Part shown: positions 10,541 to 38,313 of the stretch, in pieces
How the letters are laid out: each line of letters starts with the position of its first letter
Position numbering within the stretch: position 1 is the stretch's first letter
From: a virus
Direction: 5' to 3' (one strand)
DNA: 38,313 bases
Virus record (IMG/VR): IMGVR_UViG_3300042471_000537
Location: 1-38,313 of that record
Translations under genes and position numbers: made by a program
Notes under the pieces: generated by a model
What the model saw: the letters and a program-made list of their open reading frames with translations, nothing else
What the model was told of the DNA's origin: nothing
The model's database searches: none

Positions 10541-10933
10541 ATGGAAGATTTTACAAAGCTTTACACAAGGTTAAAGTCCGGACTATGTTTCCCGGTAGAA
10601 GAGTTAAAAGACACTTTTGAAGTATGGGTTTGGAACGAATTAGAACCGTTCGATTTTATAATTCGTTTCTCGCAGGAACAGCTAGAGTTGTTCTCTCAAA
10701 GAACCTTAAAAAGCAAAAATTGGCAACCTAGTGAAGTTGGATTAATTCGAGTAAACGAGGACATAGATCCTGCCGAAAATGAGCCAAGCTTCCTACTCGA
10801 TGTAAATATAGACGGTAAGTTTTTCGGCCTATGCATTAAACAGTCCGAACTAGAAATACTTAAAGTAAACCTTGTTGAACGCAGCTTTTTAATGGAAGCT
10901 ACTAACTTTGCAAACAATATAAGTAACGAATGA
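10541..10933 (+). CDS. Hypothetical protein (130 aa)
   Basis: ATG 10541 is preferred. A TTG at 10514 would extend it by nine residues into the previous stop. A -7-like TACGTTTG (10529-10536) ends 4 nt before the ATG. The protein is acidic with many Phe, Glu and Leu (VWVWNELEPFDFIIRFSQEQ, then LLDVNIDGKFFGLCI). It is soluble and unrecognised. Its stop overlaps the ParB-like gene (ATGA), so it may be the first gene of the ParB/cupin/IbrA cassette. Confidence 0.68.
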   Translation: MEDFTKLYTRLKSGLCFPVEELKDTFEVWVWNELEPFDFIIRFSQEQLELFSQRTLKSKNWQPSEVGLIRVNEDIDPAENEPSFLLDVNIDGKFFGLCIKQSELEILKVNLVERSFLMEATNFANNISNE

Positions 10934-11541
10934 AGATCGAGATCTTAAAAACTTCGGCTATTAAGCCAAATCCAAACAATCCACGTACTATAAGAGACGA
11001 AAAGTTCGAGAAGCTGCTTAAGTCAATAAAGGAATTTCCTGATATGCTTAAGCTACGTCCTATAGTCTTGAATTCAGATAATGTCGTTATAGGAGGTAAT
11101 ATGCGACTTAAAGCCTGTATAGAAGCCGGACTAAAGGAAGTGCCTGTAATTATCGCTAAAGGCCTTACACCGGATCAAGAAAGAGAATTTTCAATTAAGG
11201 ATAATGTATCGAATGGAGATTGGAATTGGGAAGCATTATTACAGGGTTGGAATAGTGCAGAACTTGTAGGTTGGGGCTTCGATAGTTATTCTTTCTCTAC
11301 GGTAGAAACTGTGTTTGGAGGCTTTAAGGAAACCGATCAAGATGATTTAGAGGACAATGTATATGACCTCGACTATACAGACGAACCTAAGATTACAAGC
11401 TCCGGCTTCGTTCGTTTTGATATTATTCTAAAGGAAGAGGACAAAAAGTTTTTAATGTCCCAAATTAATACAGTAAAAAAATTAATGAATAACACTAATG
11501 CGGAAGCCTTAATGCATATCATTAAATTGTACAAAAAATGA
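10930..11541 (+). CDS. ParB-like (ParB/Srx) nuclease-fold protein
   Basis: 203 aa. The N-terminal ParB/sulfiredoxin domain has the typical opening (LKTSAIKPNPNNPRTI), a motif NVVIGGNMRLKACIEAGLKE in place of the GERR box, and VPVIIAKGLTPDQEREFSIKDN. The second half (after residue about 125) is acidic and has no known domain. ParB/Srx folds bind nucleotides and occur in partition, sulfiredoxin and phage proteins with adenylate chemistry. It overlaps the cupin gene by 4 bp, so the two are co-expressed. No parS or ParA is present, so plasmid partition is unlikely. Confidence 0.85.
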   Translation: MKIEILKTSAIKPNPNNPRTIRDEKFEKLLKSIKEFPDMLKLRPIVLNSDNVVIGGNMRLKACIEAGLKEVPVIIAKGLTPDQEREFSIKDNVSNGDWNWEALLQGWNSAELVGWGFDSYSFSTVETVFGGFKETDQDDLEDNVYDLDYTDEPKITSSGFVRFDIILKEEDKKFLMSQINTVKKLMNNTNAEALMHIIKLYKK

Positions 11542-12347
11542 AAACTGAAAACGGATCTTTTATTGTATTCGATAAATCTATTACAGGCCTCCTGTATAAC
11601 GACGAAAGTAATCCGGAGTATCCAATCAGGTATTACAATGTAGTTAACGGAGAAGGTTCAGAGGACTTGTACAAGGAAAACTGTAGTTATTTTGGATATA
11701 TTTACGAAGGTAATGCAGTTTTAGACTCACAAAAAAGACCGTTTCAAGGCCTTACTAACGGTATGTACTTTGCTATATCGGAGGAGTTTAAGTTACACCA
11801 ATATGAGTTAAAAGGCTCTGTAATAATTATAGAGGTACTTAATGATCGTGGGCTATACCCGAACACCTCCTTTAAGTCGATGTACTCTGTAGGAGGCCCA
11901 ATTGAGGACAAAGGCCGTCTTAAATATATCGACGGCTGTACAGATAGTTTACTAATACCTCCGGTTAAAAAAGGGAATCCGTGCTTAAACCACCTTCACT
12001 TTCCTTCCGGTATAGATCAAACTCAACACACTCATCCTTCTCACCGGATAGGTATTGTCGCTAAGGGACACGGGGAATGTATTACTCCTTTCGGTAATAT
12101 GCCTTTAGTAGAGGGTACAATCTTTATTATTAAAGCTTGGGACGGAGTAACTTACTCTACTGCCGAAAACGGTATGGAGTACCCTATTGGCCAACACGCT
12201 TTCAAAACAACGGACTCTAGTATGGACGTTATAGCCTTTCATCCTGACTCGGATTTCGGGGCTACAGATGAAGTGCACCCTATGATTAATCGTACAATCG
12301 TAGACGGTGTTTCCGCTTCATTAATCGACTCGATAAGGACTAAATAA
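11538..12347 (+). CDS. Cupin-domain protein
   Basis: 269 aa. The C-terminal half shows a cupin metal site: His152-Leu-His154 (NHLHFPSG), His164-Thr-His166 (TQHTHPSHR), then GHGECITPFG, EGTIFIIKAWD and a late His-x-Phe (QHAFKTTDSSMDVIAFHP). The N-terminal half could be a degenerate cupin (bicupin). Cupins bind Fe, Mn or Zn and act as dioxygenases, isomerases or binding domains. Its place between ParB-like and IbrA-like genes suggests a joint pathway. The substrate is unknown. Confidence 0.8.
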   Translation: MKTENGSFIVFDKSITGLLYNDESNPEYPIRYYNVVNGEGSEDLYKENCSYFGYIYEGNAVLDSQKRPFQGLTNGMYFAISEEFKLHQYELKGSVIIIEVLNDRGLYPNTSFKSMYSVGGPIEDKGRLKYIDGCTDSLLIPPVKKGNPCLNHLHFPSGIDQTQHTHPSHRIGIVAKGHGECITPFGNMPLVEGTIFIIKAWDGVTYSTAENGMEYPIGQHAFKTTDSSMDVIAFHPDSDFGATDEVHPMINRTIVDGVSASLIDSIRTK

Positions 12348-12371
12348 CTGTAATAGTTTAAGATCAATTAA

Positions 12372-13724
12372 ATGTCAGGAATAAAAAAAAAGGAATACCT
12401 CGAAACAAATGTTTACGAAGAGAGCAAACTTAGGCTAAAGACTCTTTATGAAAACTACGATAAGGTTATAGTCAATTTCTCCGGAGGTAAGGACTCTACT
12501 GCTTTGCTTTATTTAGCTATCGAGGTTGCTAGAGAGATGGATAAATTACCCGTAGAGACTGTTTATGTCGACAATGAAATTGAGGGCACTTTTACAATAG
12601 AATTTATTGAAGCCGTACGTAATATGCCGGAGGTTGATCTTAAGTGGTATTTCTTACCTTTTAGCTTAAGAAACGCAACTTCATTTAATGCACCCTATTG
12701 GTATCCTTGGCATCCGGCTGAAAAAGAATTGTGGTGCAGGGAAATACCGGAGTATGGTTTAACGGAAATGGAAGGGCACAAATTTACCTACGATGAAAAT
12801 TATGTTCATCCGGACGGAGAAAAGTATAAAGCTCTAGGTGTTAAAGAGTCTCAAACCTTTCAAACAATTATTAATCAGTACGCTAGAAACTACGAAAAAA
12901 AAGGATTTACTGTAATTAGCCTTGTAGGCATTAGAGCTCAGGAGTCTATGGTAAGGTACTCTATTATGACTCGAAAAAGGAATGAATGTTATATGTCCGG
13001 AACAGAATCAATTGCCTACCCAATTTATGATTGGTTGGCAAAAGACGTATGGAAGTATGTTAAACAAACCGGACTTCCTTACAATAAGGAGTACGATGAA
13101 TTAAACAAAACTGAGCATTATAATAAATTAGAAAAACAGCGTGTAGGCTCTATTTTCGCAGAAGAGGCTTTAAGGACTTTACACCAATGGAATACGATCT
13201 ATAAAGATTTTTGGCACAAAATACTCGATAGAGCAGAAGGTATAAAAACAGCTTGGAGATATTGCAACGACGGGATCTATACCGGAACTAAAGTCGAAAA
13301 AGAAAAAGACGTTAAGTGGAGTGAATACCTAAAAACAATACTAAATAATATGTCTCCTGAAACTAGAGCTATTGGGATCTCAGCTATGGAGAAAATTATA
13401 ACTTGGCACAAAAATAGAACAGACCACCCTATAGCAGAAAACGAAAGGGAGGCCTGTCCTTTAACAGGAATAAGTTGGGAGTTTCTAGTTAAGATTTCAA
13501 TTCGTGGAGACACTAGAGAAAGGCAATTACAATCAGTTACTAGAGTAGCTGCTAAAGCTCAGGAAAGAAAAGGTATGACTTTCGAGGAAGCGGTAATGAT
13601 TTACGGTAACGAAAAACTTAAAAAACGATTATATGAAAAAGCATTGTCTACCGGACGGACGGGAAATGCCTCTAGAAAAGGTAAGATGGGTAAGGAGGGA
13701 ACTATTAAACCCGAACTCCTATAA
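12372..13724 (+). CDS. IbrA-like PAPS-reductase-family protein (PP-loop, DUF3440-type)
   Basis: 450 aa. The PP-loop SGGKDST is at residues 37-43. A second family motif, GIRAQES...R, lies at 186-195. The C-terminal half fits the DUF3440 extension of IbrA proteins (ACPLTGISWEFLVKISIRGDT). PAPS-reductase-like PP-loop enzymes activate substrates with ATP, and DndC of DNA phosphorothioation is a relative. IbrA usually pairs with a ParB-like IbrB, and the next gene is exactly that, overlapping by 92 bp. The reaction here is unknown. Thiolation or adenylylation of DNA or another substrate is inference. Confidence 0.88.
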   Translation: MSGIKKKEYLETNVYEESKLRLKTLYENYDKVIVNFSGGKDSTALLYLAIEVAREMDKLPVETVYVDNEIEGTFTIEFIEAVRNMPEVDLKWYFLPFSLRNATSFNAPYWYPWHPAEKELWCREIPEYGLTEMEGHKFTYDENYVHPDGEKYKALGVKESQTFQTIINQYARNYEKKGFTVISLVGIRAQESMVRYSIMTRKRNECYMSGTESIAYPIYDWLAKDVWKYVKQTGLPYNKEYDELNKTEHYNKLEKQRVGSIFAEEALRTLHQWNTIYKDFWHKILDRAEGIKTAWRYCNDGIYTGTKVEKEKDVKWSEYLKTILNNMSPETRAIGISAMEKIITWHKNRTDHPIAENEREACPLTGISWEFLVKISIRGDTRERQLQSVTRVAAKAQERKGMTFEEAVMIYGNEKLKKRLYEKALSTGRTGNASRKGKMGKEGTIKPELL

Positions 13725-20300: not shown

Positions 20301-20428
20301 TAAACCTAAAGGCAACTCTAAATAGTAGAGGTATGGAAAAGCAGATTAAAGGCCTTAGAAACGATCTTAACAACTTTGTTCAACGAAAGGTTACTGTAAT
20401 TAAAGACACTCGCAACCAATGGCAGTAA
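17309..20428 (+). CDS. Tail tape measure protein
   Basis: 1039 aa, the longest gene. It starts at GTG 17309 (ANVLITFEAETSNLEQGING), the usual opening of Bacteroidota tape measures. Long Ala/Glu/Lys-rich coiled coil follows, with a hydrophobic segment near residues 294-318 (AALAATGIGLVIVGVSLLIE) and a second near 885-915. Near the C-terminus, KKGGWVNGASHEAGGV begins at residue 925, followed by GGEYVVKKSAA, a hallmark of tape-measure C-termini. It sets tail length and sits in the tail lumen. At about 1.5 Angstrom per residue, a tail of about 150 nm is expected. Confidence 0.95.
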   Translation: MAANVLITFEAETSNLEQGINGIISTTDAAVKAAKGAGQKIKEEFTETGKAIGAAFGSQQVNAALKNLTSESDKLTASLDKLQKEEVQLIATGQLASKSYKDNQLEQAKLRAKITETEKAQKKLNDTFGNGSGKAASLKAQLKEATIQLQKLEDAGQEGTDAFNELLLKTAQLRDRVGDLNERVTVLASDTFKFDVAVDAVQQLAGAFAVVQGAAALFGAENEDLQKTIAKTQGAIALLQGVQQLANFVRGQSAAKIAIENALIKINEASIKQSAATYTLFGRTIQFTSIQLNFFKAALAATGIGLVIVGVSLLIEKLQSVTSANERYNQTLKNSKDALATVGESIKALRDIQNEADTDLRVATKEITQAQADREEATKKVGAEVAKGSRAATGQIIALEREYSRLNGTINANESAIEASLKSTRESAGLTAATLSKENQELEKQRAKVGGDIKKLQDERAKLVEDGNATVASINAKYDQIEIENAKVKTKELIDKANKLAEERIRIQLNVLKTNQTIEGSNLANQIKIAEKEAELAKQSAKGATENKELAASQIALIEAELQQKLEELRKGEIVKQATVELQRIKNAETANNKILENSLVVLTKEEEIANAKAGLIKDTAEREVELERIRLEFIEKRKVISDKSEAEALRLIEKRIELEQVVNGATLQNETELLKARADIRKLDINNSTLSEKEKAAQILLINAQLQKDITQITIDEQIKRNNIELQGILTRRAQGKETVEDRIKEATLVSDNEKKELFKRLGDTEEYKANVIRINAELEANLKEIRAENIRDTIEKIVGYSQQVFDTISAINELSRKITENYIAKIQEQNAIEIEGIENSGKTYAEKQRLIDAANFRTARLVAKEKTRQATSDKALALFQAVINTASGIAKAIPNPALIALAAITGGIQIATIAAQPIPKFKKGGWVNGASHEAGGVRAELEGGEYVVKKSAASKYAKEIEAMNTSGLSYKKLIAEKYVKPSIIDYALSSKRDREINLKATLNSRGMEKQIKGLRNDLNNFVQRKVTVIKDTRNQWQ

Positions 20429-22449
20429 GAATAAAGTTCCTCTTAACCGGAGAAGATAGAGGACAGCCGCTTAATCCGGAGGACTTCGGTGTAAATATTA
20501 CAGAGGAAAGCTCGATTAACTCTCGAATTATAAGCTTTGAAAACGAACTTATTTTTGGTGGAGATGTGTTCGGGTATCTTTACGGGAAAGTAGAACAGGG
20601 AGACTTTTGCGAATTAATAGAAACTTCCGTACTATACGAATGTAAGGATGGATGGAAAAAGCTTGTAGACGGATATATTATAATTACGGAGTGTAAGTTT
20701 GATATAGACAAGTGTACCGTTCGTACAACAATGTACGATGAAACATTTTCGACTAAGATCAATAATAACAAAACGATACCTTTCTATAACGATAGTAATA
20801 TTACTAAGAACCTGCAACCTGTTGTTCCTCCGTCCCGGTTATCGTTATTCTTATTTACTCCGTCTAACGGTCAGTACATACTAAACTATAACGTACAAGC
20901 GATAACTGTATACGATGCGTTTAAGCACCTTGTAGCCTGTATGTCAGATAACCTTGTCGATTTCGAAAGCGACTACTTTAAGGTTATCCGTCCTAATTTT
21001 GATATAGGGTGCACCGAGGAAAGAAAGACTTTAGTTTTAACCTCCGGTCTAGGTATTAGAAAACCTAATACACTACACGTAGCGTTTACTTTTGAGCAGT
21101 TGTTTACAGCTCTAAACAGAAAACTTAGGCTAGGTATGGGTTTCTATAAACAGAATAATGGACGACCTCTTTTAAGGATCGAGAATGCAGATTACTTTTT
21201 TGAACAGAATAGGAGCTGCGAACTATACGACCAACCCGGTATCGAAATGCTATACGACAGGGAGCAGCTTATTGCGTCTATTAGATTTGGCGCAGATCCT
21301 TTTTTCGAAAAATTTGAATGCAACGACGGTAATACTCCGTGCTCTTTTTTACAGACTCCATTTAGAGGCTTTAAGACAGAGTCTTTTGGTATCTTAGGTA
21401 CTTGTAACACGGAGCGACAATTAGATTTAGAGACTACAGATGTTATATTCGATACTAACATTATAGAAGATATCCTAATTTACGGCAACCTTTCTTATGA
21501 CGACAATCCTGTTATAATGAGCGTATGCGTTAATAGGGGACTTGCCGTAGAAAACGCTACGGCCTTACAATATGATCCTTTAGGGGATAGCAGTACGATC
21601 TATAATGGCAATCTTATAAACTCTCAGGTAGCGTCTAATTGGATAGGTGGATATCCAAATTCTTTATGGCAATATTTACAGGGATTTAACCCGGCCGAAA
21701 CTCCGTTTAATGCTAGATATAACGGCTTCCCGGTAATGACTTTTGATATTATAGAGGACACCTTTACCTCTTACGCAGTTTATACCGGGACGTTTCTAAC
21801 TTTTAATCAGATCTTGGTTAACGCTAACGGTAACTATAACACGATAGATACCTACAATGTACCCTATGCAGGAGTCTATACATTTAACTACGGAGTAACC
21901 TTAGACGGAATAAACGAACCTGTAGGACGTAGATCCTTTATTACTCTTAAGCAGTACGATCTTAACGACGTATTCTTAGGAGACTATAATAGTCCTGTAG
22001 TTTTGGACACCGGATTTAACACCGTTATAAATATTAGAGATAGCATAATTATCGCTTGTAACCAAGGGGATAAAATAAGAGTCGATATTAGTGTATGTAC
22101 TCAGAACTCCGGAACAGTAACTTCTTGGCAGCAGGATATTATACCTTCTGTAACGGTTGGGCCTGTAACAGACTTTACAGAATTCATAGGTTCGGGTGTA
22201 CCTTTCGGGGATACCGGATTACAGCCTGTAAATCCAAACGATGTTAGAACAGTATTATATCGTTTTAAGCGACCTTTAACGATGCTAGAGATCGAGAGTA
22301 TTCTATCTAATACAAGTGCGCCTATAGGCCTTGGAAACAAGTCAAATGCTACGTTTAATATCGACACCTATATTAAGCAGGTTCAGATAGAGTCTGTAAT
22401 AAGGCAAAACGCTACCTTTGAACTACGATCTAAAAACCTATTGTCATGA
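20419..22449 (+). CDS. Tail tip / baseplate protein (676 aa)
   Basis: It follows the tape measure with a 10-bp overlap, where distal-tail and hub proteins usually lie. The N-terminal half is beta-rich (AVRIKFLLTGEDRGQPLNPE, LIFGGDVFGYLYGKVEQG) and has scattered Cys. A later region (YNTIDTYNVPYAGVYTFNYG) looks like a jelly-roll module. Homologues in this place in Bacteroidota phages are called tail or baseplate hub proteins. The exact role (Dit or Tal) cannot be set from the sequence. Confidence 0.78.
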   Translation: MAVRIKFLLTGEDRGQPLNPEDFGVNITEESSINSRIISFENELIFGGDVFGYLYGKVEQGDFCELIETSVLYECKDGWKKLVDGYIIITECKFDIDKCTVRTTMYDETFSTKINNNKTIPFYNDSNITKNLQPVVPPSRLSLFLFTPSNGQYILNYNVQAITVYDAFKHLVACMSDNLVDFESDYFKVIRPNFDIGCTEERKTLVLTSGLGIRKPNTLHVAFTFEQLFTALNRKLRLGMGFYKQNNGRPLLRIENADYFFEQNRSCELYDQPGIEMLYDREQLIASIRFGADPFFEKFECNDGNTPCSFLQTPFRGFKTESFGILGTCNTERQLDLETTDVIFDTNIIEDILIYGNLSYDDNPVIMSVCVNRGLAVENATALQYDPLGDSSTIYNGNLINSQVASNWIGGYPNSLWQYLQGFNPAETPFNARYNGFPVMTFDIIEDTFTSYAVYTGTFLTFNQILVNANGNYNTIDTYNVPYAGVYTFNYGVTLDGINEPVGRRSFITLKQYDLNDVFLGDYNSPVVLDTGFNTVINIRDSIIIACNQGDKIRVDISVCTQNSGTVTSWQQDIIPSVTVGPVTDFTEFIGSGVPFGDTGLQPVNPNDVRTVLYRFKRPLTMLEIESILSNTSAPIGLGNKSNATFNIDTYIKQVQIESVIRQNATFELRSKNLLS

Positions 22450-35505: not shown

Positions 35506-36462
35506 ATGGCAGGAGAACCGATTACAACCTTTCCCTTTTTAGGCACTCCGGAAGCCGGAGACAAGTTCTATGTAGTAGACGTTTCCGATACAACTCAGAG
35601 TCCGGAAGGTAGCTCGAAACAGACCGATCTACAAGAGATCGCTAATACGTTAAACTCTCTACTTTCTTACGTTCCTTTAGGAGGCACAGGAGAGGCGACA
35701 GGGAATCCAATTTCGGGGGACGTAGAAGTAGACGTTGCCCGAGGAGGTAAGTTTACTTTTAATTTCCCGAATGGAGATCAAATTATAATTGGAGAAGATT
35801 TTGGAGGTTATTCTGCAATGAAGTTTGTAGACGGAACAACGGGAGGTGAATTGTGGGCTTACATTCGAGGCGCTGATTTATATTTGAATAATCCTAGTTC
35901 AGGAGATACAGTTGGAGGAATAAACACAATAATAAATGCATTACAATCGAGTAAATTAAATTTTTATAATGGGTTCAATACTACTACTCAAGGAGCGTTT
36001 GGAACTGCTGATATATTATATCTTGGATTTAACGGAAAACAATATCTAGATAATGGTGTAGCAGGTTATAAAGGATATTCTCAATTAAAAAGATATTATT
36101 TTATAGATAGTTGTAGTTATTCGCAATCGGGTACTAATGCACCTACAATAGATAGTACTTTTGAAAGTCAACTTCAAGACTATCCAATGACAGGGAAGGT
36201 AGTATCAAGACAAGGAGTAGGGCATTATAGAATAGAATACATAGAACAATTTGGTTCTAATTATCTTCCTACAGATTTTACAAGAATAAAAGTAATTACG
36301 AGCCAAGGAGCAGAACCTCACGTTTGCATTTCGTATTCATTTCCCGGATTTACGTCGACAACTTCACTTGCGATTGATATCTTTACTCGACAGCCTTCAA
36401 ACAATAATTTAGTGGATAGCCACTTAGATAACAGCGTAATTGAAGTTTATTTTTACCTGTAA
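35506..36462 (+). CDS. Tail fibre / receptor-binding-type protein (318 aa)
   Basis: N-terminus (EPITTFPFLGTPEAGDKFYV, then SSKQTDLQEIANTLN) is the usual fibre anchor in Bacteroidota phages. Then a beta-helical-like part and a C-terminal globular part (FPGFTSTTSLAIDIFTRQ). From about 35,850 to 36,300 the DNA is more AT-rich and lacks the CCGG-type codons frequent elsewhere, suggesting an exchanged receptor-binding domain. A short gap before it holds TATATTTAC, a weak -7-like box. Confidence 0.72.
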   Translation: MAGEPITTFPFLGTPEAGDKFYVVDVSDTTQSPEGSSKQTDLQEIANTLNSLLSYVPLGGTGEATGNPISGDVEVDVARGGKFTFNFPNGDQIIIGEDFGGYSAMKFVDGTTGGELWAYIRGADLYLNNPSSGDTVGGINTIINALQSSKLNFYNGFNTTTQGAFGTADILYLGFNGKQYLDNGVAGYKGYSQLKRYYFIDSCSYSQSGTNAPTIDSTFESQLQDYPMTGKVVSRQGVGHYRIEYIEQFGSNYLPTDFTRIKVITSQGAEPHVCISYSFPGFTSTTSLAIDIFTRQPSNNNLVDSHLDNSVIEVYFYL

Positions 36463-36929
36463 TGTATTCGATTTCAGAACGAGGACTTTCTTTAATTAAA
36501 AAATTCGAAGGATTTAGTCCTAAGGCCTACCTATGTGCAGCCGGAGTTCCTACGATTGGTTTCGGAAACACTACCTATCTAGACGGACGAAAGGTTAAAT
36601 TAGGAGAGCGTTTAGGCCGGGACAATGTTTCTGCTATGCAGGAAGCTACGGCTTTACTACTATCGACTTTACCTAAATTCGAAAAGGCTGTAAACGGAGC
36701 AGTCGGAGGTTTAATTAATCAGAGTCAGTTCGATGCACTTGTTAGCTTTACGTACAACGTCGGCATAGGGGCTTTCCAAAAATCTACCCTCTTAAAGGCT
36801 ATTAAGCTCAATGCTAACGACGTTAATATTAGAGGTCAGTTCCTAAGATGGAACAAGGCCGGAGGAAAGGAATTAAGGGGCTTAACGCTAAGACGTACGG
36901 AGGAAGCTGATCTCTACTTTTCTAAATAA
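36462..36929 (+). CDS. Endolysin, GH24 lysozyme (T4/P1-type)
   Basis: 155 aa. Catalytic pattern E-x8-C-x5-T: Glu16 (KKFEGFSPKAYL), Cys25, Thr31 (VPTIGFG). Typical lysozyme SQFDALVSFTYNVGIGAFQK and final LTLRRTEEADLYFSK. It cleaves peptidoglycan between MurNAc and GlcNAc. No N-terminal signal or SAR segment is seen, so export depends on the holin. It overlaps the fibre-like gene by one base (TAATG). Confidence 0.93.
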   Translation: MYSISERGLSLIKKFEGFSPKAYLCAAGVPTIGFGNTTYLDGRKVKLGERLGRDNVSAMQEATALLLSTLPKFEKAVNGAVGGLINQSQFDALVSFTYNVGIGAFQKSTLLKAIKLNANDVNIRGQFLRWNKAGGKELRGLTLRRTEEADLYFSK

Positions 36930-37001: not shown

Positions 37002-37274
37002 CTAAGGCAAATCGACTAATCCAAAAAAAGGTTTTTCGTTCACAGACTTATTTCCTTCGCAAGACCATAACTGTCGTGCCCACCAATTTGCACCTCCTTT
37101 CTTTGAGTCGATACCTGCACTACGGGCGCAGTAAGAATTACCTGCGTCTGTTCCGGGCTTAATTCGATAACCGGAAGCACCGAAATGAATTTCGTTTCCC
37201 TGTTCGTCAATAGCCTTATATTTCTTACCTTCCCTATCGGAACGAGTAATCGTGTAACCTTTATACTCAGGCAT
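37002..37274 (-). CDS. Minus-strand conserved small protein (90 aa)
   Basis: The only confident minus-strand gene. Begins MPEYKGYTITRSDREGKKYK and has a conserved core FGASGYRIKPGTDAGNSYC, ARSAGI, WWARQLWSCEGNKS. I recall proteins with GxSGYRIxPGTxxGNxYCARSxGI...ANxWARxxWxCxGxKS in many phages and bacteria (DUF5872-like), of unknown role. A TATTTTTG box lies 20 nt upstream of the start on this strand. Two Cys are conserved. It sits inside the lysis region opposite to its neighbours, so it may be a recent insertion or separately timed. Confidence 0.83.
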   Translation of the reverse strand: MPEYKGYTITRSDREGKKYKAIDEQGNEIHFGASGYRIKPGTDAGNSYCARSAGIDSKKGGANWWARQLWSCEGNKSVNEKPFFGLVDLP

Positions 37275-37293: not shown

Positions 37294-37327
37294 CAAAAAT
37301 ACGTATAAAAATATATGAAACGGACAA
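37294..37327 (-). promoter_or_regulatory. Weak promoter for the minus-strand gene
   Basis: Reading the minus strand, TATTTTTG at 37301-37294 and TTG at 37327-37325, spacing 23. The start at 37274 lies 19 nt downstream of the -7 box. It overlaps the plus-strand holin-like gene's start. Confidence 0.45.
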
Positions 37328-37527
37328 GAAACCCTAATAGATCTAAAGCCGTATTAGACGTTATCTTAAAGCATTGGAGAACGACTTTTGGGGCGGTTAT
37401 TGTGCTAATCTCTACGTTCGGCTTAATCTTTAAGCTTGTTTCTATTGAAGTTTATGCGGCCATTATTTCGGCAATGGTGGCGGCAGGATATCTACCTAAA
37501 CAGAAAGACGATGAAAGTTCCGGATAA
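37315..37527 (+). CDS. Holin-like protein (70 aa)
   Basis: Basic N-terminus (MKRTRNPNRSK), two hydrophobic segments at about residues 24-42 (TFGAVIVLISTFGLIFKL) and 45-60 (EVYAAIISAMVAAGYL), charged C-terminus. This is the form of a class II holin, and the lysozyme is two genes upstream. It would release the endolysin across the inner membrane. Overlaps the next gene by 17 bp. Confidence 0.78.
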   Translation: MKRTRNPNRSKAVLDVILKHWRTTFGAVIVLISTFGLIFKLVSIEVYAAIISAMVAAGYLPKQKDDESSG

Positions 37528-37972
37528 CGATAAGACTTTAGCAGTTTACTGCATATTTCACTCGCAGGGACTCGATTGTACAAACCACGGAAAGTTGGTT
37601 AAAGATCTACCTATGGTACAGGTATTAGATACGTCGATCTTTTTAGATACGAACACGGCTGTAATAGAAAAAGCCGTCGTACAGAATATTGAAACCAAGG
37701 TAGAAGTAGATATTAAGACTCCGGAAATTAAAATGCAGAAAGAGGAAGTAACGTACCTGCCAAAAGTTGAAAATACTGCTATAATTCTAAAAGAAAAAAC
37801 AGGTATTACAACCGAAAAAATAAGTACTTTTAGGCCTATGGAGCAGAGCTACATTTACAACGAATACGGATTATTCTTAAGCCTTATCGTAATGACCTAT
37901 ATAACATACAGGTATAGTGTTAATAGTGTACGCTATTGGGGTGCTCTTATTGAGGACTTAAGAAGCGTTTAA
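37511..37972 (+). CDS. Lysis-region protein with one C-terminal membrane segment (153 aa)
   Basis: ATG 37511. A TTG at 37436 upstream lies deep in the holin-like gene and is rejected. N-terminal CIFHSQGLDCTNHGKLV, a long Lys/Glu/Val-rich middle (VEVDIKTPEIKMQKEEVT), and a hydrophobic segment at about 118-135 (YGLFLSLIVMTYITYRY). An internal ATG at 37838 could give a 44-aa membrane protein resembling the 31-aa one at 31178. Function unknown, perhaps accessory to lysis. Confidence 0.68.
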   Translation: MKVPDNDKTLAVYCIFHSQGLDCTNHGKLVKDLPMVQVLDTSIFLDTNTAVIEKAVVQNIETKVEVDIKTPEIKMQKEEVTYLPKVENTAIILKEKTGITTEKISTFRPMEQSYIYNEYGLFLSLIVMTYITYRYSVNSVRYWGALIEDLRSV

Positions 37973-37974
37973 TA

Positions 37975-38313
37975 ATGTCTGTTTACTACATACTCGATAA
38001 CTCTTTAGATATCCTATACGTAGTAACCGAGCCGTCCGGTAACGTCGTAGAGTCTAATGAACTTTTTAAGGGCTTTACGTCGCATTTTAAGCCTCGAAAG
38101 TTTCAAGATATACTAGAGGACGGATCGGATATAGACGCTGTCTTACAAGCCGTAAAAAAGGCTAACGAGCACGAGCCGGAGTGTATACGATTTTACTCTA
38201 AGACTAAACAAAAAAGTGGTGCTTCGAGGTGGATAATGTGGAACGTCTATTCAATAAATAAGTCGTTACACTTTATAGGTGTAAATTTATATGACGTTAC
38301 TTCGATAACGAAC
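37975..38313 (+). CDS. PAS-HisKA protein, N-terminal part (continues at 1-256)
   Basis: ATG 37975, 2 bp after the previous stop. Residues 1-113 in the window, continuing at base 29 to give 188 aa. This part is a PAS domain: opening DNSLDILYVVTEPSGNVVES, a middle PRKFQDILEDGSDI, and core strands SRWIMWNVYSI, SLHFIGVNLYDVTSIT, the DxT ending usual for PAS. It senses a ligand or partner in known proteins. Position inside the lysis-region operon, with coupled genes on both sides, suggests it acts late. No membrane segment, so cytoplasmic. Confidence 0.85.
   Translation, partial: MSVYYILDNSLDILYVVTEPSGNVVESNELFKGFTSHFKPRKFQDILEDGSDIDAVLQAVKKANEHEPECIRFYSKTKQKSGASRWIMWNVYSINKSLHFIGVNLYDVTSITN
38286..38313. 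repeat. Right copy of 28-bp terminal overlap
   Basis: Identical to bases 1-28. See the left copy. Merging the copies gives a continuous PAS-HisKA frame. Confidence 0.9.

Follow-up and report, generated by a model that had tools for sequence, protein, structure and literature searches.

No class of bacterial sensor is commoner than the two-component systems, and the literature we searched gave few phage proteins acting on them, one being PIT4 of Pseudomonas phage LSL4, a lytic-phage protein that targets host histidine kinases (PMC10714779). Several relevant variations on histidine kinases are already known. HisKA proteins without HATPase make up 3.66% of those in SMART, and the HisKA and HATPase parts of EnvZ are functional as separate polypeptides (the former reported, the latter cited, in PMC3591291). 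Split kinases such as CheA3/CheA4 place the phospho-accepting and ATP-binding roles on separate proteins. In the model of the RetS-GacS pair, the dimerization and histidine phosphotransfer (DHp) domain of one kinase docks on that of another to control it (PMC12148439). Viral kinases are known as well, since PAS and HisKA folds are found in phage and giant-virus histidine kinases of BFVD. Here, we describe a phage gene from IMG/VR record IMGVR_UViG_3300042471_000537 (38,313 nucleotides, analyzed at full length and called the window below), which encodes a predicted PAS domain followed by a DHp domain and nothing more. We call it PAS-DHp. With only a little more than even confidence, we propose that it is a soluble stand-alone protein entering host two-component signaling in trans.

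The first 28 bases of the window are identical to the last 28 (TTTATATGACGTTACTTCGATAACGAAC; positions 1-28 duplicate 38286-38313), and the record is therefore circular, with 38,285 bp. The PAS-DHp gene, on the plus strand like all genes given below unless stated otherwise, spans the junction of the circle. Joining 37975-38313, which encodes residues 1-113, to 29-256, which encodes residues 114-188 and the stop, gives a single frame of 567 nt. Pfam HisKA matches residues 129-180 of the product (E value of 1.5e-9, exceeding the curated cut-off) and 14 of 14 family representatives. The H-box (EEFRFMLSHELRQPLTS, residues 124-140, positions 59-109) contains the motif SHELRQPLTSV, with His132 encoded by CAC at 83-85, Glu133 at H+1, and Gln136 at H+4. 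An earlier note on this DNA had described a joined 188-residue frame with this motif, His132, and a stop 56 residues further on, all of which the joined translation reproduces.

The predicted fold is that of the front part of a sensor kinase. AlphaFold2 was run as a single chain on the homologue of locus L002 (86% identical), with an input of 14 diverse homologues. It predicts a PAS sheet (strands 11-18, 23-27, 71-77, 85-94, and 97-105, i.e., about 11-105 and encoded by the first part of the gene) and two long helices, 113-150, containing His132, and 156-187. The HisKA hairpin that the earlier note expected a structure prediction to contain is present in the model. The second helix corresponds to positions 155-250, and the protein terminates there, with no catalytic and ATP-binding (CA) domain after it. 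The top PDB match in a second look was the LOV histidine kinase EL346 (4r3a; Z score of 12.9, root mean square deviation of 3.3 Å over 156 residues). Residues 10-186 of the model superpose on 15-188 of the 4r3a chain, and the remainder of that 318-residue chain has no counterpart. Numerous other PAS and LOV structures were among the matches. Of the two domains called by the earlier note, HisKA is confirmed by Pfam, and the PAS assignment is one of predicted fold and structural matches to LOV/PAS kinases. Like EL346 and the PhoR/PnpS-like kinases, the phage protein combines a PAS fold, a DVT motif and helix, and a DHp hairpin with its H-box, being collinear with residues 15-188 of EL346 and 85-228 of PnpS. 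Unlike HisKA-family PAS sensor kinases, it has no membrane segment, HAMP, or HATPase_c, and it carries Gln at H+4. It also differs from the best matches named in BFVD, which are mostly longer kinases with 11-13% identity. A HisKA-class histidine kinase has a DHp domain, an H-box His, and an HATPase_c domain on the same protein; the phage protein has the first two. ATP-dependent autophosphorylation would not be expected without a CA domain.

Is this a protein in its own right or a broken kinase? An IMG/VR protein search with an H-box pattern gave 292 loci with relatives, of which the best 80 were retrieved. As a check on the bias of such a pattern, the scan was redone with PAS-only patterns, and the outcome was unchanged. 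There were 362 relatives in viral contigs, the complete proteins that were checked had 188 or 189 residues, and SHELRQP was present in 150 of 152 proteins checked, with near variants in the other two. A third scan, which served as a further check on this bias with the same outcome, was seeded by a neighboring gene (2200-2847). It gave 74 new loci, and the PAS-DHp gene was present in all 61 (61/61) that had sufficient sequence upstream; the remaining 13 had too little. The best matches of each scan, rather than all 362 loci, provided the 126 distinct complete genes (112 proteins) on which the counts below are based. The earlier note had proposed to look for the same length in related phages, and all 126 genes encode 183-189 residues (188 in 82, 189 in 42, and 183 in 2) and terminate just past the second DHp helix. 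His132 and Glu133 are found in 126 of 126, and the 700 nt downstream of these genes are devoid of N-box and G1-like ATPase motifs in all forward frames. Such constancy of length and H-box over 126 distinct genes goes well past what chance would give. The ratio of nonsynonymous to synonymous substitution rates (dN/dS) is 0.08 over the whole gene (109 distinct genes) and 0.024 over residues 122-140, where dS is about 0.9 and synonymous codons vary freely, a picture of very strong purifying selection; these are descriptive values rather than test statistics, since the pairs are not independent. Judging from the sequences compared, PAS-DHp is a near-universal core gene of its phage clade.

A broken kinase is excluded by the constant length, the low dN/dS, and the presence across relatives. 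A full-length kinase was found in no relative, so that the truncation is not mere breakage of this copy, an outcome that the earlier note had named as refuting its reading. The related idea of a functionless, degenerate remnant of a captured kinase has some appeal, because the layout is that of an ordinary PAS-HisKA-HATPase kinase cut short, and NCBIfam aligns the protein collinearly with PnpS (E value of 1.1e-9, far below the model cut-off). Yet the selection on the gene, its fixed length, its universal presence, and the conserved spacing of its promoter (see below) make this extremely improbable. As a separate observation, divergent members at L163 (4035-4583) and L232 have the H-box SHELLSPL, in which the Arg and Gln are replaced and the His and Glu retained, and a DHp loop shorter by about 5-6 residues.

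The missing domains are not supplied elsewhere by the phage. HATPase_c is absent from the protein, as the earlier note had stated, and from the whole window record, as is Response_reg. The records of 28 related phages, mostly 34-40 kb long, had no match to either domain, although these searches did give matches in control genomes. A catalytic half or response regulator encoded elsewhere by the phage was thus rejected for the window and these 28 relatives. Any phosphorylation partner must therefore be the host's, which suggests that the fragment works by borrowing or blocking host signaling proteins. Like the bifunctional split histidine kinases, it has HisKA without HATPase on one protein. The difference is that the phage encodes the phospho-acceptor half, with the host as the only possible source of a catalytic half, and that the phage family does not carry the HE/DxxN/T phosphatase motif by which such split kinases are recognized. 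Chemistry in trans is feasible, because the halves of EnvZ work separately and RetS pairs with GacS through its DHp domain.

The H-box residues give an indication of what the phage DHp could do. In the HisKA kinase CrdS, an acid at H+1 is required for kinase activity and Thr or Asn at H+4 for phosphatase activity; the N375Q variant has unmeasurable phosphatase activity and retains about 60% of its kinase activity (PMC3510030). The residue at H+4 is Gln in 123 of the phage genes, Ser in 2, and His in 1, and never Thr or Asn. We predict, by analogy with CrdS, that the phage DHp can accept phosphate and yet has no phosphatase activity, because its H+4 residue is Gln. In the proposed mechanism, the DHp hairpin would bind a host histidine kinase (by heterodimer formation or as its substrate), a host response regulator, or both. 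His132 would be phosphorylated in trans by the catalytic domain of the host kinase, and the phosphate would be handed to a host response regulator or withheld from it, with the PAS domain in control. The net effect could be a one-way push, in which the regulator stays phosphorylated, or a sink, rather than a balanced switch, since Gln at H+4 should preclude dephosphorylation of the regulator. The output might be a change in host envelope or stress physiology late in infection, a guess that fits the location of the gene in the lysis cassette. A more specific version is tentative: a virus-encoded half kinase, locked against phosphatase activity, would be completed by the host catalytic half, and the hybrid would drive a host regulon before lysis on a signal set by the phage.

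Titration of, cross-phosphorylation with, or rewiring of a host kinase, as put forward in the earlier note, may each apply. Two alternatives to our reading also involve host proteins. The protein could be a dominant-negative decoy, whose DHp domain would form a heterodimer with a host kinase and keep it from autophosphorylating, without phosphotransfer through His132. The DHp-only architecture is suited to heterodimerization, RetS replaces the DHp-DHp interface of GacS and so blocks trans-autophosphorylation (PMC12148439), and PIT4 binds host kinase domains (PMC10714779). A decoy would nevertheless need neither the phospho-accepting His nor the adjacent Glu, which are invariant in the 126 genes and lie in the most constrained region. 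We regard this decoy as unlikely, though it deserves attention. The two precedents differ from the phage protein in other respects, as RetS, a membrane kinase from a bacterium, has additional domains, whereas the phage family has DHp and PAS alone and keeps His and Glu throughout; PIT4, in turn, is unlike PAS-DHp, which is itself derived from a kinase and a core gene of its clade. The second alternative is a phosphotransferase or shuttle of the Spo0B, ChpT, or histidine-containing phosphotransfer (HPt) type, carrying phosphate from one host regulator to another, or to loss, without contact with a host kinase. Stand-alone DHp phosphotransferases exist, Spo0B and ChpT being examples, and the H-box, which contacts receivers, is hyperconserved here. 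However, Spo0B and ChpT retain a degenerate ATPase-like domain, which is absent from the phage protein, and it is normally a CA domain that phosphorylates an H-box of the HisKA type. The Glu at H+1, required for phosphorylation by the CA domain (PMC3510030), is invariant. Such a shuttle seems to us rather improbable.

How is the gene expressed, and in which host? A TAnnTTTG box lies 12-15 nt upstream of the start codon in 79 of the 126 genes, exactly at -12 in 65, and is spread over four of nine protein clusters; it occurs in 1% of random 20-nt stretches. The 79 genes are related and do not represent 79 independent events, but clusters that have diverged still share an identical spacing, which speaks for selection. 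The -7 box of Flavobacterium promoters extends from -12 to -5 relative to the transcription start (PMC6847099). With this geometry, the spacing of the box implies that the mRNAs should start at the AUG or within 3 nt of it, and thus be essentially leaderless, a class that makes up only 5.5% of mapped Flavobacterium psychrophilum mRNAs (PMC9723704). Most relatives would then produce the protein from a dedicated host-type promoter, an arrangement that suggests expression uncoupled from that of the lysis genes. The promoter type, together with the matches of the DUF6291 replication protein, points to a Bacteroidota-type host. The recorded hosts of the phages matched by DUF6291 are all Flavobacteriaceae, in addition to three records without a named host. 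Searches with the terminase and lysozyme fixed no host, and the PAS-DHp family had no copy in 84,980 species genomes, PLSDB plasmids, or INPHARED cultured phages. A genome scan with the DHp domain only gave one Alphaproteobacterial kinase, at 40% identity, which is uninformative on the host.

Several observations weigh against a protein acting in trans on host signaling, and they should be kept in mind. The PAS models of Pfam have no sequence match in the window protein or in the 14 representatives, and the single-chain model has a mean predicted local distance difference test score (pLDDT) of 78, i.e., moderate confidence. EL346 is described as monomeric, so dimerization of the phage protein is not assured. 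The conservation of the H-box could reflect binding alone. The species genomes, the DHp-only scan, and PLSDB gave no bacterial kinase closely related to the family, so specificity cannot be read from relatives, and we identified no partner kinase or regulator, the host signals being no narrower than Bacteroidota-like. Finally, the window copy has no promoter box and is probably transcribed together with the upstream genes.

If the trans-acting reading is true, the family shows in nature how a virus-encoded subunit can complete a kinase of its host. It would also help to explain how lytic phages sense and influence the state of the cell late in infection, and its DHp module, naturally devoid of phosphatase activity, could be used to dissect the specificity between kinases and regulators. 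A whole phage clade keeps, near-universally, a signaling fragment that should work only with host parts. In the open-access literature we searched, there was no match for a phage-encoded histidine kinase, nor did we find there a near-universal, strongly conserved lysis-cassette fragment of this type in a phage clade.

The location of the gene in the lysis region, noted earlier, holds across the family. The order lysozyme, holin-like protein, (tail-anchored protein), PAS-DHp, and 222-residue protein is found in 77 of the 79 distinct-gene loci with full context, and PAS-DHp thus has a constant place alongside the endolysin and holin-like genes, as expected of a lysis-cassette member. The tail-anchored protein went undetected in about one third of those loci, probably because of fast divergence. 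Of the small genes that the earlier note described as coupled to PAS-DHp on both flanks, the downstream one is indeed coupled: its start overlaps the PAS-DHp stop in an ATGA in 97 of 126 genes. A phage-internal ligand or redox switch can be imagined on this basis, in which the PAS domain would sense cell state and the DHp would dimerize and signal to neighboring phage proteins, either the coupled helical protein of 58-69 residues or the membrane proteins of the cassette. The fixed order with lysis genes and the ATGA coupling are in its favor, but the neighbors evolve far faster than PAS-DHp, unlike tight partners, and the residues for phosphotransfer chemistry are invariant; we consider it quite improbable. 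The link to lysis timing suggested in the earlier note obtained no direct support, as it derives from position and the promoter box of 79 genes suggests independent expression. A role in lysis timing is possible, on the basis of gene position.

Within the cassette, the lysozyme label is firm (endolysin, 36462-36929; Pfam Phage_lysozyme, 3.9e-38; PHROG endolysin, 2.2e-47), and the holin-like and spanin-like labels are putative, given from hydropathy, layout, and position. The holin-like protein (37315-37527, 70 residues), placed after the endolysin, has two hydrophobic stretches and no family match in Pfam, PHROG, or NCBIfam. Directly upstream of PAS-DHp, 37511-37972 encodes a fast-evolving protein of 153 residues, possibly tail-anchored, with a hydrophobic stretch near the C terminus that, in the window copy, does not reach the hydropathy value usually required. 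The coupled downstream gene (253-429) encodes a fast-evolving protein of 58 residues, with three helices according to aligned homologues and AlphaFold2 (pLDDT of 87 for the L024 homologue); a structure search gave no convincing fold match. It is followed by a 50-residue protein of PHROG 2423, of unknown function (420-572), and, in conserved order, by the 222-residue protein (569-1237). The latter carries a membrane helix at its N terminus, closely followed by a Cys that never varies, then a predicted extracytoplasmic domain, and a Gly-containing hydrophobic C-terminal stretch. Pfam and NCBIfam gave no match and PHROG none that was convincing, and the protein is possibly a new type of spanin, being spanin-like by layout only.

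Other features of the window are of lesser relevance. A strong candidate for a Bacteroidota-type promoter (TTTG, then TACCTTTG) is found at 1314, at the boundary between the lysis cassette and the next gene block. Between the lysozyme and holin-like genes, a lone minus-strand gene (37002-37274) encodes a 90-residue DUF5754 protein (Pfam, 5.8e-8). The corresponding gap is about as large in L002 but about 50 bp or less in most relatives, so the gene appears to have been inserted in this lineage. Searches with the tail protein at 20419-22449 and the open reading frame at 35506-36462 gave no match. At 10930-13724, a ParB-like protein, an unmatched protein of 269 residues, and a phosphoadenosine phosphosulfate (PAPS) reductase/DUF3440 protein are encoded consecutively, with a weak NCBIfam match to DndC, and these genes possibly form a DNA-modification or sulfur module.
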